The position numbers and the translations under genes are program-made. A model generated the notes under the pieces. It saw only the letters and a program-made list of their open reading frames with translations. It had not been told where the DNA came from and searched no databases. This document shows positions 1,190 through 57,339 of a DNA stretch of 64,000 nt, piece after piece; position 1 is the first letter of the stretch; each line of letters opens with the position of its first letter. The stretch is from Microbacterium testaceum (GTDB lineage Bacteria > Actinomycetota > Actinomycetes > Actinomycetales > Microbacteriaceae), in contig NZ_CP121699.1 in the NCBI RefSeq assembly GCF_029761935.1, forward strand, positions 2,914,001 through 2,978,000, given 5' to 3'.

Positions 1190-1249
1190 GTGAGGGGCCA
1201 ATTTTCGTCGCTTGCGGGTGCCCCGAAGCGACAGAAATTGGCCCCTCAC
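1190..1249. repeat. Palindromic element A (family 1, solitary)
   Basis: Perfect 15-bp outer arms (1190-1204 and 1235-1249), then a 2-base mismatch, then a second stem GTCGCTT/AAGCGAC (1207-1213 and 1226-1232). Each arm reads GTGAG-N2-GCCA-N6-GTCGCTT, the same layout as the elements at 5050-5117 and 6071-6140, but no DUF559-type gene lies beside this copy. It lies between convergent genes. There is no T-tract, so terminator function is not the obvious reading. Confidence 0.8.
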
Positions 1250-3496: not shown

Positions 3497-3897
3497 GCGC
3501 GTTCACCGTCGGCGAGGTCATCGCCGAACGCTCCGTTCACCTCACGCGTGAGTCTCTCGTCCGCTACGCCGGCGCGTCGGGCGACTTCAACCCCATCCAC
3601 TACCGCGACGACGTCGCCGCCGCCGTGGGTCTGCCGGGCGTCCTCGCGCACGGCATGCTCACCATGGGCATCGCCGTCGGCACGCTGACCGACGCGCTGG
3701 GCGACACCGGACGCATCGCCGAATACGGCGTGCGCTTCACCCGACCGGTCGTCGTCGACCCGGAGGCCGGAGCCGACCTGCACGTCAGCGCGAAGGTCGG
3801 AGCCGTCGACGACGAGACCGCCCGCATCGACCTGACCGTCACGTTCGCCGAGACGACGGTGCTCGGCAAGGCGCAGGTGCGGGTGCGGTTGTCCTGA
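3493..3897 (+). CDS. MaoC-like (R)-hydratase subunit (HadB-like)
   Basis: 134 residues with the hydratase-2 motif YAGASGDFNPIHYRDD (residues about 24-39). It contains the catalytic Asp and His of MaoC hydratases, followed by GVLAHGMLTMGI. It should supply the active site of a heterodimer with the protein at 3047-3496, the arrangement of mycobacterial HadAB, which dehydrates 3-hydroxyacyl-ACP. The ATG overlaps the upstream stop by 4 nt and its own TGA overlaps the murB ATG by 1 nt. All three genes are therefore one transcript, a conserved actinobacterial arrangement. Confidence 0.88.
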   Translation: MSAFTVGEVIAERSVHLTRESLVRYAGASGDFNPIHYRDDVAAAVGLPGVLAHGMLTMGIAVGTLTDALGDTGRIAEYGVRFTRPVVVDPEAGADLHVSAKVGAVDDETARIDLTVTFAETTVLGKAQVRVRLS

Positions 3898-5033
3898 TGC
3901 CCGAGGTCGCCCCCGTCCCCCTCTCGCAGTTGACCACCCTGCGCACGGGGGGAGAACCCGCCCGTCTCATCGACGCCTCGACGCTCGACGAGGCGGTCGC
4001 CGCGCTCCGCGAGGTGTGGGCCGAGGGCGAGCCGTGGTTCGTGCTCGGCGGCGGCTCGAACCTGTTCGTCGGCGACGAGCCCTTCGAGGGCACGGTCGTG
4101 CGGCTCCGCACGTCGGGGATCGAAGAGCTGCCGGGCTCGCGCGAGGGCACGGTACGCCTGCGCGTGCAGGCCGGACACGACTGGGACGCCCTCGTCGCCG
4201 AGACGGTCGCGCGCGGCTTCGCCGGCATCGAGGCGATGTCGGGCATCCCCGGCACGGTCGGTGCCGCGCCCGTGCAGAACGTCGGGGCCTATGGCCAGGA
4301 GATCGTCCAGACCCTCGTCGAGGTCGAGCTGATCGACGAATCGACCGGTGAGGTCTCGACCGTCTCCGCTGAAGAACTGGGCCTGGGCTTTCGCACGTCG
4401 GTGCTGAAGCGCCACTACGGTTCGGTGCCCGAGCGCTCCGCGGTCATCCTCTCGGTGACGCTCGAGCTCGAACGCGTGGGCGCGGAGGAGCGGCCCATCG
4501 CGGGCGAGCAGCTGCGCGGCGCCCTCGGTCTTGAACCGGGCCAGACCGTCTCGCTCCGGTGGATCCGCGACCACGTCCTCACCACCCGCGCCCGCAAGGG
4601 TATGGTCCTCGACGCCGAGGACCCCGATACCTGGAGCGCGGGGTCGTTCTTCCAGAACGCGATCGTCTCGGAGGCCTTCGCCCGTACCCTCCCGGCCGAA
4701 TGCCCCCAGTGGCCCCTCACGCCGGTGCTCGATCCGGTGACGGTCATTCCGCTCGCCGCCTTCGACGGCATCCTGCCCCCGCCCCCCGTGGTGTCGCGGC
4801 AGGTCAAGGTGAGCGCAGCCTGGCTCATCGAGAACGCCGGTCTCCGCCGGGGGTTCCGCTTCCCGCGCTCGCGCGCCGGGCTCTCGACCAAGCACACGCT
4901 CGCCCTGACGAACCGCGGAGAAGCGACCGCGGCCGAGATCGCCGAGCTCGCCCGCTTCGTGCAGAATCGGGTGGCCTCGGAGTTCGGCCTTGTGCTGCAG
5001 CCCGAACCGGTCCTGGTCAACGTCGAGCTGTAG
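3897..5033 (+). CDS. murB: UDP-N-acetylenolpyruvoylglucosamine reductase MurB
   Basis: 378 residues, the length expected for actinobacterial MurB. It carries the opening PLSQLTTLRTGGEPA, the FAD-binding GGGSNLFVGDE (about residues 49-59), the MSGIPGTVGAAPVQNVGAYG segment, and WSAGSFFQNAIV, in which a serine acts as proton donor in known MurB enzymes. It reduces UDP-GlcNAc-enolpyruvate to UDP-MurNAc with NADPH in the cytosol, an essential peptidoglycan step. The ATG overlaps the preceding TGA. A palindromic element (5050-5117) begins 16 bp after its stop. Confidence 0.96.
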   Translation: MPEVAPVPLSQLTTLRTGGEPARLIDASTLDEAVAALREVWAEGEPWFVLGGGSNLFVGDEPFEGTVVRLRTSGIEELPGSREGTVRLRVQAGHDWDALVAETVARGFAGIEAMSGIPGTVGAAPVQNVGAYGQEIVQTLVEVELIDESTGEVSTVSAEELGLGFRTSVLKRHYGSVPERSAVILSVTLELERVGAEERPIAGEQLRGALGLEPGQTVSLRWIRDHVLTTRARKGMVLDAEDPDTWSAGSFFQNAIVSEAFARTLPAECPQWPLTPVLDPVTVIPLAAFDGILPPPPVVSRQVKVSAAWLIENAGLRRGFRFPRSRAGLSTKHTLALTNRGEATAAEIAELARFVQNRVASEFGLVLQPEPVLVNVEL

Positions 5034-5049
5034 GTCCCCCAGGGCTCCT

Positions 5050-5117
5050 CCGCGTGAGTCGCCAAGAATTGTCGCTTCGAACGCTGTCAAAGCGACAATT
5101 TCTGGCGAGTCACGCGG
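5050..5117. repeat. Palindromic element B (family 1), left border of a DUF559-type gene
   Basis: Arms of about 27 bases pair with three mismatches around the loop at 5078-5089. The murB-side arm reads GTGAG-TC-GCCA-N6-GTCGCTT. The gene-side arm (reverse complement) differs at one fixed base, GTGAC instead of GTGAG, which gives the element an orientation. The TGA of the adjacent minus-strand gene (5110-5112) lies inside this arm. Compare elements C (6071-6140) and A (1190-1249). Confidence 0.85.
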
Positions 5118-6003
5118 GGGTTCTCGCGAGCAGGCGGCGAATACGCGCGAGCAGAGCGACCGGGTCGTCGAAATCGCGTGCCGTCACGACAGTCATCCGG
5201 TAGCCGAGGGACTCCAGCTCGGCCCGGCGAGACTGATCCCTGCTCCATTGGTGCGGATCGCGGTGATGATCACCGTCGTACTCGATAATGAGTCGTTCAT
5301 CCGGGTAGAGCAGATCGACGCGGGCCACGAACCGACTCCCGTCGAAGATCTCGACGTTGCTCTGCGGCACCGGCAGGCCGGACTGGATGAGAAGAACGCG
5401 CAACTCCGACTCCCGTGGCGACTCCGCCCGCTCATCCGCGAGATCCACGGCAAGTCGGCGTCGCTTCGATCCCCTGCCGCCCAGGAATCGACGATGCATC
5501 CGCTCGAGATCCTTTCGCGTCGCCATCTGATGATGGCGCGAGATGAGCCGATCCGAGATGGCCGTCAGCTGCCCGACTCCCAGCATTTCGGCGAGTTCCG
5601 CCCACGTCCTGAGGGGAGAAGTGCACCGGATGCCATGGACCTCGACGATGTCGTCGGGCACGACCGCCAGAGCCCGACCGGTGGTGCCGGGGCGACGTAT
5701 CCGGTTCTGATCCGCGGGAACTCCGATGAACGGTCTCTCCCACGCGGTTGTCGACAGAGCGTACGGCAGGGGGAGTCCGTGCAGAACAGCCGCAGTGGGG
5801 CCGCAGAAGAACGCGTGCGCGGGAAGCGCGCGCAGAAGGGCCGCGAGCACATCCCCTTGCGTGGAGGACTCCGCGACTCGGATTCCGGCGTGCGGGATCG
5901 TCCAGACCGCCGCCCTCATCGTGCTCGGCGTCAGGCCGTGATGTGCGCCCTCGGCGATGGTGAACGCGTCAGTGGGTCCGATGAGGCGGCGGGTTGTCGG
6001 CAT
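5110..6003 (-). CDS. AbiEi-like / DUF559 (REase-fold) domain protein inside a palindrome pair
   Basis: 297 residues. The N-terminal part (about 1-75) resembles the winged-helix domain of AbiEi-type antitoxins. FCGPTAAVLHGLPLP follows near residue 72. The C-terminal half carries ARVDLLYPDERLIIEYDGDHH (split: ARVDLLYPDE / RLIIEYDGDHH), the D...E-x-D arrangement of DUF559/MTES_1575-type restriction-endonuclease-fold domains related to Vsr. DNA cleavage or nicking is a family-based inference; the biological role is unknown. The stop codon lies inside palindrome B and palindrome C begins 68 bp upstream of its ATG, so the gene and both palindromes look like one unit. Paralogs are at 37554-38513 (intact) and about 50230-51023 (decayed). 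Confidence 0.75.
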   Translation of the reverse strand: MPTTRRLIGPTDAFTIAEGAHHGLTPSTMRAAVWTIPHAGIRVAESSTQGDVLAALLRALPAHAFFCGPTAAVLHGLPLPYALSTTAWERPFIGVPADQNRIRRPGTTGRALAVVPDDIVEVHGIRCTSPLRTWAELAEMLGVGQLTAISDRLISRHHQMATRKDLERMHRRFLGGRGSKRRRLAVDLADERAESPRESELRVLLIQSGLPVPQSNVEIFDGSRFVARVDLLYPDERLIIEYDGDHHRDPHQWSRDQSRRAELESLGYRMTVVTARDFDDPVALLARIRRLLARTPA

Positions 6004-6070
6004 CCGGTGATGATGGCGCTTTACTCACCGGCGCGCGCTCACCTCTCCCCAGCCCCTGCTCTCCGCTCTG

Positions 6071-6140
6071 CGCGCGTGACTCGCCAAGAACTGTCGCTTC
6101 GGAGGTGGCCGAAGCGACAAATTATGGCGACTCACGCGCG
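6071..6140. repeat. Palindromic element C (family 1), right border of a DUF559-type gene
   Basis: Arms of about 32 bases with four mismatches flank a 6-nt loop (6103-6108). The gene-side arm carries GTGAC-TC-GCCA and the outer arm GTGAG-TC-GCCA, the mirror image of element B. The two elements are therefore inverted with respect to each other around the gene. Confidence 0.85.
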
Positions 6141-6183
6141 AAGACGGGCGGAAGACGGGCGGAAGGCGGGCGGAAGACGCGGG
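6140..6183. repeat. 11-bp tandem repeat next to palindrome C
   Basis: Four 11-bp units (GAAGACGGGCG twice, GAAGGCGGGCG, then GAAGACGCGGG) start at the outer end of palindrome C. They stop just before the aminotransferase stop codon. Confidence 0.8.
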
Positions 6184-6205: not shown

Positions 6206-7405
6206 TCAGGCGAACAGGCGCTGGAGGCGCTGCACGCCCTCGAGGAGCTGGTCGTCGCCCAGGGCGTACGACAGGCGCAGGTATCCGCTCGGGCCGAAGG
6301 CCTCGCCGGGGACGACGGCGACCTCGGCCTGCTCGAGGATGAGGTCGGCGAGATCGAGCGAGGTGGTGGGCGTGACGCCGCCCCACGTGCGGTTCAGCAG
6401 GCCCTGCACGTCGGGGTAGACGTAGAACGCGCCGAGCGGGTTGGGCACCTCGACGCCGTCGATCTTCGACAGCTCCGACACGATCAGCTTCCGGCGGCGG
6501 TCGAAGGCCAGGCGGAACTGCTCGGCCTCGTCCTGCGGGCCGTTCAACGCCTCGGCGGCGGCGAGCTGCGCGACGTTGTTGACGTTGCTCGACAGGTGCG
6601 ACTGCAGGTTGCCGGCGAGCTTCATGGCATCCGCCGGTCCGACCATCCAGCCCACGCGCCATCCGGTCATGGCGTAGGTCTTGGCCACGCCGTTGACGAG
6701 GATGGTCTGCCCCGCGAGCTCGGGCACGGCCTCGACGATCGAGACGGCCTTGACGCCCTCGTACGTGAGGTTCTGGTAGATCTCGTCGGTGATGACCCAG
6801 ATGCCGTGCTCGAGGGCCCAGCGACCGATCTCGGCGGTCTCTTCGGGCGTGTAGACCGAGCCGGTGGGGTTCGAGGGCGAGACGAACACGAGCACCGTGG
6901 TCTTGTCGGTGCGCGCGGCCTCGAGCTGGGCGACGGTGACCTTGTAGTCCTGGTCGGCGCCGGCGAACACCTCGACGGGCGTGCCGTCGGCCAGGGCGAT
7001 CGCCTCGGGGTAGGTGGTCCAGTACGGGGCGGGCAGCAGCACCTCGTCGCCGGGGTTCACCACCGTTTGGAACGCCTGGTACACCGACTGCTTGCCGCCG
7101 TTGGTCACGATGACCTGCGAGGGCGCGACCTCGAGGCCGGAGTCGCGGAGGGTCTTCGCGGCGATCGCCTCGCGCAGCACGGGGAGGCCCGCGGCGGGGG
7201 TGTAGCGGTAGTTCTTCGGGTCCTGCAGCGCCTTCGCTGCGGCATCGACGATGAACGAGGGCGTGGCGAAGTCGGGCTCGCCGGCCGCGTACGAGATGAC
7301 CGGTCGGCCGGCGGCCTGGAGGGCCTTGGCCTTGGCGTCGACCTTGAGGGTCGCGGACTCGGCGATGGCGGACAGCTTGCGGGAGAGCGGGGCGCGGGAA
7401 GTCAC
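6206..7405 (-). CDS. Pyridoxal-phosphate aminotransferase (aspartate/aromatic type)
   Basis: 399 residues from the GTG at 7405. Fold-type I class I aminotransferase with [35 protein letters not shown] and [17 protein letters not shown], in which the lysine of AKTY should bind PLP and the arginine binds the substrate carboxylate. It probably transaminates aspartate or another amino acid with 2-oxoglutarate in the cytosol. A longer reading frame reaches 7501, but the GTG at 7405 is preceded by TAGGCT (plus-strand 7413-7418) with 7 nt between, a leaderless start. It is divergent from the CLC channel gene. Confidence 0.9.
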
Positions 7406-50229: not shown

Positions 50230-51023
50230 GTGTCGTCGCCGTCGCCGGGGTGCCGCCGCCGTCGGCATGCGGTCGTCTCCCACCTTTCCGCTGCGGTGCT
50301 CCATGGTCTTCCGCTGTACCGATTCCGGGAGCAGCGCGTGCAGATGGTGGTCCCCCGCTCTGCGCATCCGCCCAGCGGGTCGTACGTCCGCCGGCACACC
50401 AGTGCTCTGGACGAGGACGATGTCGTCGACGTCGACGGCATCCGGTGCACCTCGATCGAGCGGACGGTGTTCGACGTCTCTCGGACCGAGACGCGGGAGA
50501 TGGCCTTGTCGTGCGTCGACGGGGCTCTTCGTCGCGCCGCGGTGGAACGTCGGCGGCTGCGTGCCGATGTGCAGGACGCCTGGCGTCAGCGCCTGCGGGA
50601 GCGTGTCGCCCGTGCGCGGGGGCAGCGAGGGGTGCGTGACGCGAGCTGGGTCGTCGAGTTCGCCGACGGTCGTGCGGAGCTGCCCGGAGAGAGCGTGAGT
50701 CGGCTCCAGCTGCATCGGCTCGGCTTCCGTGACCTCGATCTGCAGGTGGCCGTCGCCGGGCCGCGAGGTTCGGACTACTTCGTCGATATCGGGCTGCGTC
50801 AGGTCCGCACCTTCTGGGAGTTCGACGGCGAGGTGAAGTACCGCGACGTCGCGATGAGGCAGGGGCGCTCGATCGAGGACGTGGTGCTCGAGGAGAAGCG
50901 CCGCGAAGACTGGATCCGGGGCGTCACGCAATGGCGGCTGTGCCGCTGGGCTTCGCGGACATCGCGACACCGGAGACGCTTGCTGCGCGCCTGTTCGCTT
51001 TCGGTGTGCATCCGCCGCGGTGA
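50230..51023 (+). pseudogene. Decayed AbiEi/DUF559-type gene (third copy)
   Basis: The reading frame contains VVSHLSAAVLHGLPLY (from about 50266), VDGIRCTSIERTVFDVSRT and FVDIGLRQVRTFWEFDGEV, colinear with the paralogs at 5110 and 37554. The N-terminal winged-helix part of about 70 residues is missing. At 50947-50951 the frame breaks: TGG GCT continues as nonsense, but shifting by one base gives [20 protein letters not shown] ending in TGA at 51021. One G was probably lost. No palindrome pair surrounds this copy, only a weak dyad at 51057-51077. A sequencing error at the G-run cannot be excluded for the frameshift; the 5' truncation is independent of it. Confidence 0.75.
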
Positions 51024-52325: not shown

Positions 52326-52358
52326 TCTCGCTTCGAGCGGTCGCGTCACCGCGATAAA

Positions 52359-52392
52359 CGAAGGCCCGGATGCCATGGCATCCGGGCCTTCG
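52359..52392 (+). terminator. Terminator of rplJ-rplL made of an inverted GGATGCC pair
   Basis: Perfect arms of 15 bp (52359-52373 and 52378-52392) with CATG as loop. The centre is GGATGCC-AT-GGCATCC, the over-represented heptamer in head-to-head orientation. The same core recurs in the terminator at 57299-57336. Confidence 0.85.
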
Positions 52393-52484
52393 TCGTTTCT
52401 CGTGAGCGTCGGGAGCGGTCGGCCGATCGGGGGCCCGGCGCCCGGACGGGTGTGAGACCCGGTTTCATGCGACGAGGAACCGAT

Positions 52485-57287: not shown

Positions 57288-57298
57288 TCAGCGAGAGA

Positions 57299-57336
57299 GA
57301 CGGGACCCCGGATGCCATGGCATCCGGGGTCCCGTC
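57299..57336 (+). terminator. Terminator after the nuclease/nucleotidase gene, also an inverted GGATGCC pair
   Basis: Perfect 17-bp arms (57299-57315 and 57320-57336), loop CATG, then TTTT. The core is identical to that at 52359-52392 while the outer stem differs. It lies between the plus-strand gene and the convergent lacI-type gene. Confidence 0.88.
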
Positions 57337-57339
57337 TTT

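Follow-up and report, generated by a model that had tools for sequence, protein, structure and literature searches.

REP elements are the described system closest to the locus presented here, and the dedicated enzyme of REP-like elements elsewhere is the RAYT transposase, as far as the available text of two sources goes (PMC2817692, PMC3733652). In the accessible part of the first of those (PMC2817692), four hallmarks of RAYT genes are given, namely flanking palindromes, co-evolution, fast evolution, and a link with abundance, and REPs are described as usually exceeding 100 copies per genome. The accessible part of the other (PMC3733652) describes a one-sided tetranucleotide tag of the REPs, which is either GTAG or CGTC, and a CGTC class reported without a dedicated transposase.

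The locus lies in the window, i.e., the whole stretch of 64,000 nucleotides of Microbacterium testaceum DNA that was analysed, and consists of a DUF559 gene between two matched palindromes. As in REP/RAYT systems, the palindromes are dispersed and gene-specific, and, in comparison with the available text of PMC2817692, gene and palindrome change together, the gene diverges faster than its neighbours, and orthologs are found at a fixed chromosomal place; three of the four hallmarks are present at the DUF559 units and the abundance link is partial. Unlike in REP/RAYT systems, the enzyme is a predicted AbiEi-like protein with a Vsr-like nuclease instead of a HUH/tyrosine enzyme, and the palindromes, which are 60-70 bp long and nearly symmetric, are without the one-sided GTAG or CGTC tag (PMC3733652, accessible part) and amount to tens of arms per genome, fewer than the more than 100 copies given for REPs (PMC2817692, accessible part). 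With the CGTC-tagged REPs, they share that the dispersed palindromes are unexplained by RAYTs, but the DUF559 unit has a candidate dedicated enzyme, and its palindrome sequences and hosts differ from those in the available text of PMC3733652. By analogy, the unit would work like a "REPtron" but is not a member of that class, the enzyme class and the tag, both defining, being different. The resemblance is one of layout, with an enzyme that has no relation to RAYTs.

Two further systems share single parts with the locus. Unlike I-Bth0305I, an EDxHD/Vsr-type homing endonuclease (PDB 3r3p), the gene of the window is free-standing between murB and an aminotransferase gene, and it comes with an AbiEi-like part and with dispersed palindromes. 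The AbiEi-like part differs from the AbiEi antitoxins known from type IV toxin-antitoxin systems (PDB 6y8q) in being fused to a predicted nuclease, and the gene is directly bordered by murB and the aminotransferase gene instead of by an AbiEii toxin gene. An initial sequence-only reading had seen in the locus the organisation of REP/RAYT elements, which is supported for the matched and gene-specific flanks, for the dispersal of the types searched, and for the joint change of gene and palindrome at murB. It had also placed an AbiEi-like module next to a DUF559-type domain where a tyrosine transposase would be expected, in agreement with the predicted fold, the Pfam matches, and the lack of Y1_Tnp in this genome. 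It knew of no described system with this pairing, and in an open-access library without bioRxiv no description of a DUF559-palindrome unit was found.

The gene and its palindromes in the window

The predicted AbiEi-like/DUF559 nuclease gene (5110..6003, reverse strand) is intact, encoding 297 aa from ATG to TGA. Its conserved neighbours are murB (3897..5033, forward strand; Pfam MurB_C), located downstream of the unit, and a class I/II aminotransferase gene (6206..7402, reverse strand; Pfam Aminotran_1_2), located upstream. According to prediction, the protein combines an AbiEi-antitoxin fold, the candidate DNA-binding part (residues 4-190; 5434..5994, reverse strand), with a Vsr/I-Bth0305I-like nuclease (residues 193-297; 5113..5427, reverse strand). 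This fold assignment is based on VIA-align 2, and a Foldseek search gave no PDB matches at E ≤ 0.001. Within the nuclease part, the Pfam model DUF559 matched residues 229-270 with 22.3 bits (cut-off 20.6), while MTES_1575 matched residues 229-288 with 25.8 bits, below its cut-off of 38.2; both models were matched by 28 of 28 aligned homologs at E ≤ 1. Five residues of the nuclease part, E198, D230, E241, H247, and D256, are invariant. For E241 and H247, the conservation among the named loci is biased, as those loci were chosen by a pattern spanning both residues, while E198, D230, and D256 lie outside this pattern. A second DUF559-family paralog is encoded in the window (50266-50832, forward strand; L034), with no clear flanking palindromes.

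Palindrome B (5047..5120, arm core 5054-5113) is the downstream copy and palindrome C (6067..6144, core 6076-6135) the upstream one, about 64 bp before the start codon. All four of their arms match GTGASTCGCCA-N6-GTCGCTT with 0 mismatches. Palindrome A (1190..1249), one of the dispersed palindromes and of the related type GGGGYC, lies between two convergent genes, and its arms have 2 and 3 mismatches to the same pattern. The window has six arms, whereas 100 dinucleotide-shuffled versions had 0.07 on average and never as many as six. Folded as single-stranded DNA, B, C, and A give -31.1, -33.5, and -28.2 kcal/mol, with z-scores of -8.3, -7.7, and -10.4, respectively. An 11-bp tandem repeat, GAAGACGGGCG, with about four units (6140-6183), is found directly beside palindrome C. 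Elsewhere in the window, near-perfect hairpins with a GGATGCC core (52358-52393 and 57298-57337), also present in the related genome G073, resemble ordinary terminators.

The gene's stop codon, TGA (5112-5110), coincides with the TGA in palindrome B's inner arm, GTGAC. The inner arms of B and C both read GTGAC and the outer ones GTGAG, a one-base asymmetry. The sequence-only reading was accurate for the window itself, i.e., for the arm pattern shared by B and C around an intact DUF559 gene, for the stop codon within palindrome B, and for GTGAC facing inward and GTGAG outward, but the inverted, G/C-marked orientation is not conserved. GTGAC is found in 3 of the 29 exact arms of the genome (the inner arms of B and C, and G000:C1:393291), the other 26 having GTGAG. 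Among homologs, the inward GTGAC is absent in L037 (81% identity) and L038 (73%) and is found on one side only in L039 (also 73%). In comparison with the inverted pair of REP/RAYT systems, there is a single marker base per near-symmetric palindrome, inverted in the window, not in L037 and L038, and by half in L039; the GTGAC-inward orientation is a local detail of this locus and no general rule.

Several simple origins were considered for the palindromes and rejected. Rfam returned only five matches in the window between 900 and 6400, each under its gathering score, which speaks against a known RNA family. Between 4900 and 6300, neither a terminator-like site with a T-run nor a sigma-70 promoter consensus site was found, against a simple terminator or promoter explanation. 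The reading in which the palindromes are terminators or insulators around the gene, alike by chance or shared constraint, would draw on the strong predicted hairpins and on the position of A between convergent genes. Besides lacking a T-run site in that interval, it leaves unexplained why flanks match within a gene and mismatch between genes (see below), and we consider it highly improbable.

Matched flanking palindromes in relatives

For each gene, the 350-bp flanks on its two sides were compared with each other, and their highest-scoring local match was taken, with a threshold of 20. Within Microbacterium (70 loci fetched, 3 dropped for short flanks), 47 of 67 loci reached this score; the rate was 2.4% among 795 cross-pairs, and of 180 control ORFs, which were unfiltered for DUF559 genes, 5 reached it. 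In a set of 80 named actinobacterial loci, from which 3 were dropped for short flanks, the threshold was reached by 52 of 77, versus 10 of 916 cross-pairs and none of 115 other ORFs from the same loci. At the order level, 7 of 30 loci were dropped as belonging to the window's own genome or the same genus, and 16 of the remaining 23 reached the score, versus 5 of 506 cross-pairs. With a score of 16 instead of 20, the control ORFs would amount to 12/180 and 6/115. The locus sets overlap in part (e.g., L181 and L039 are the same gene under different handles), and the 99 paired loci reduce to 90 at 90% identity. At the threshold, no matched pair was found for 20/67, 25/77, and 7/23 loci, i.e., in about a third of the tests (52/167). 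The five paralogs of the gene within its own genome have no clear flanking pair either, with one borderline case at 20.5. A chance origin of the pairs is contradicted by the shuffles, the cross-pairings, and the control ORFs.

Matched palindromes of their own type flank many relatives, down to about 31% protein identity, and the named loci with matched flanks include Agrococcus, Cryobacterium, Curtobacterium, Promicromonospora, Arthrobacter, Aeromicrobium, Nocardioides, and Naasia. Farther from the protein of the window, the matched palindromes are of other types, such as GAGTGTCC, GATGGAAAACGCC, and GACTTGCCGCAAATGGC. The upstream repeat is palindromic in 73 of the 99 paired loci, versus 3 of 99 when shuffled, the other 26 being below the threshold used. 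The downstream copy starts between -20 and +15 of the stop codon in 62 of 99; for L044, the stop codon used in scoring lay far past the match, which leaves its downstream flank unsure. Between loci, palindromes are alike (score of at least 20) in 30% of 70 pairs at 60-95% protein identity, in 3.4% of 178 pairs at 50-60%, and in 0-0.5% below 50%. Since vertical descent alone would give this as well, the likeness across loci is weaker evidence than the swap between two genomes described below.

The flanks of some homologs are built differently. In Agrococcus, L189 and L192 (and, less regularly, L190) have long arrays of ~20-bp units, GAGTGGCGCC / GAGTGGTCAC, instead of single palindromes, with inverted orientation between the two sides of the homolog. 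In Microbacterium sorbitolivorans, either side of the homolog L226 is occupied by about four palindromes in tandem.

Gene type and palindrome type at the murB locus

In the genome of the window (G000; 3.38 Mb, one contig), the arm pattern was matched 66 times at up to two mismatches, versus 6 for the reversed pattern, and a stricter TCGCCA-type pattern at up to one mismatch gave 39 arms versus 0 for the reversed control. Most of the 21 whole palindromes read in this genome are symmetric, with ends GCGTGAG...CTCACGC and nearly symmetric arms. Across 198 Microbacterium genomes, 17 were positive for TCGCCA-type arms (controls 0) and 31 for GAGTGTCC-type arms, with up to 99 in one genome (controls 0); for the GGGGTC-type search, the reversed-pattern control gave 0-2 matches per genome. 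Outside the genus, Promicromonospora-type arms were found in two genomes (76 + 76) and in none of the 10 others tested, and Arthrobacter/Pseudarthrobacter-type arms in four (14, 14, 22, and 25) and in none of 8 others (controls 0-1). The positive genomes are mostly close relatives and thus the counts of gene and palindrome are not independent.

Of the relatives in the 198 Microbacterium genomes, the six nearest to the protein (62-81% identity) are encoded beside murB, as in G000. All seven have palindromes on both sides, of TCGCCA type in G000, G058, G027, and G055, and of GGGGTC type in G016, G167, and G073, and eight further murB-adjacent relatives (49-56% identity) have matched flanks in five cases. 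In the four genomes with a TCGCCA-flanked DUF559 gene beside murB, the TCGCCA:GGGGTC arms amount to 39:27, 33:23, 22:0, and 19:30, and in the three with a GGGGTC-flanked one to 9:38, 4:21, and 1:50, the 38 of G073 including the arms that flank its own gene. The gene's own type is therefore the commoner one in six of seven genomes, the exception being G055, with more GGGGTC arms.

The nearest relative, G073, has a murB 98% identical to that of G000, and a DUF559 protein identical by 64%. DNA identity between the two is 94% as far as the unit and 92% in the gene that follows, but drops to 70% within the DUF559 gene. In G073, this gene is preceded by a GGGGTC palindrome and followed by a fourfold array of the same type. 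From this alignment, the difference would be read as a cassette replacement of the unit or as gene and palindromes changing together very fast. The DUF559 protein showed lower similarity than both murB and the aminotransferase (the latter partly covered) in all six comparisons.

Genomes without the gene at murB keep arms of either type, GGGGTC in G009 (67) and G053 (39), and TCGCCA in G084 (20) and G006 (16). The palindromes therefore persist without the DUF559 gene or are made by another one, and a strict dependence on the murB-locus gene is ruled out by G009, G053, G084, G006, and G093. In G009, a solo GGGGTC palindrome (G009:C7:37184-37242) occupies the murB-aminotransferase gap, in which relatives carry the complete unit, and G006 and G024 have gene remnants beside murB. 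These carriers fit a loss of the gene with leftover palindromes, and they would also fit palindromes independent of the gene. Whether copy number depends on the gene, a check suggested along with the sequence-only reading, thus has a divided answer, with the own type commoner in most genomes and palindromes abundant in some genomes that lack the DUF559 gene at murB.

The apparent swap between G000 and G073, and the single GGGGTC palindrome that G009 keeps where the gene would be, could also belong to a DUF559 defence or accessory gene which uses host palindromes as recombination arms, the palindromes being spread by something else. A weak match of the PADLOC methyl-directed restriction enzyme model to 9 of 28 homologs would be in line with such a role. 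However, the palindrome type tracks the gene type at the murB locus, the specificity of each pair for its gene extends across genera, and there is no RAYT-type transposase to explain the palindromes (the transposase survey covered Y1_Tnp), and we regard this reading as unlikely. The same survey bears on the reading in which a RAYT (Y1/HUH tyrosine transposase) encoded elsewhere in the genome moves the palindromes as REP elements and the DUF559 gene is a passenger. Although layout and dispersal resemble REP/RAYT (PMC2817692, accessible part), Y1_Tnp (PF01797) is absent from G000 and present in one of 198 genus genomes, G041, in which none of the three arm types searched across the genus was found. 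This reading was rejected, and a RAYT as the mover of the palindromes is practically excluded.

The flanking palindromes might instead be operators of an AbiEi-like regulator that controls its own gene, the dispersed copies being further regulatory sites. The predicted AbiEi fold of the N-terminal part and the upstream copy ~64 bp before the start codon point in this direction, and AbiEi antitoxins bind inverted repeats and autoregulate (PMC7319586, available text). It is quite unlikely nonetheless, given that the second copy is at the stop codon in many loci (the 62/99 within -20 to +15), that dispersed copies are found also between convergent genes, as palindrome A, and inside an open reading frame, and that the nuclease residues are kept.

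The locus is probably a gene-palindrome unit analogous to the REP/RAYT "REPtron", with an unrelated, predicted enzyme by which the palindromes would be cut and spread. The evidence that gene and palindromes form a unit is strong, and this reading was chosen because of the matched flanks, the gene specificity, the dispersal of the types searched, the joint change at murB, and the predicted fold. The protein would recognise its own 60-70 bp palindrome type through the AbiEi-like part, and its Vsr/homing-endonuclease-like domain would nick or cut the palindrome. Repair by copying another palindrome of the same type would then spread that type, occasionally into new sites and often by overwriting palindromes in place. 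The two flanking copies would label the unit to which the gene belongs, and the whole palindrome-gene-palindrome unit may be exchanged as a cassette at its fixed chromosomal place, a step proposed because of G000 versus G073. If true, a second, unrelated enzyme class would share the layout of REP/RAYT, so that gene-palindrome units would have arisen more than once, and a function would be suggested for a large set of DUF559 proteins, relatives of which are present in 184 of 198 genomes drawn from the order. Since each gene's likely target is at its own flanks, binding, cutting, and specificity would be testable with short oligonucleotides.

Different palindrome types at the same sites

The overwriting step was proposed because different palindrome types are found at orthologous sites. 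A total of 15 sites of G000 were compared with G073, five from 284 kb of synteny and ten chosen from the 21 whole palindromes, with the state at the chosen sites taken from the first 120-140 bases after the left flank. In G073, six sites have the same type (one degenerate), four the other type, and five neither. For the ten chosen sites, G063 has one same, four switched, and five neither, and in G150 nine were found, of which one is switched and eight have neither; as the right flanks are not all aligned, the calls of "neither" are less sure than those of "same" or "switched". A GGGGTC palindrome of G073 is located at the site of palindrome A.

By simple arithmetic, the ~20 GGGGTC palindromes of G063 (31 arms) would place one in a random 200-bp stretch ~0.1% of the time, or ~1% if a tenth of the genome were open to palindromes. 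The 4/10 switched sites in G063 suggest that replacement of a resident palindrome by the other type may be more frequent than arrival at new sites, or else that both types are drawn to the same sites. A clean presence/absence was seen once in the 284 kb compared, at G000:C1:2997710, where an indel of ~54 bp separates G000, with a palindrome, from G073, with none; gain and loss would both be possible.

A wider reading, which we put forward tentatively and at somewhat less than an even chance, is that widespread actinobacterial palindromes are propagated by AbiEi-Vsr-like nucleases, each of which would "brand" palindrome sites already present in the genome with its own type by cut and repair, as a homing-driven REP system that would have evolved independently of RAYT.

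One palindrome was also found within an open reading frame, for which the Rickettsia palindromic elements offer a comparison. In G000, a TCGCCA-type palindrome lies in frame inside an 868-codon open frame, helicase-like on reading (G000:C1:3019161-3019221, L297), and the corresponding place in G073 is taken by a palindrome of GGGGTC type.
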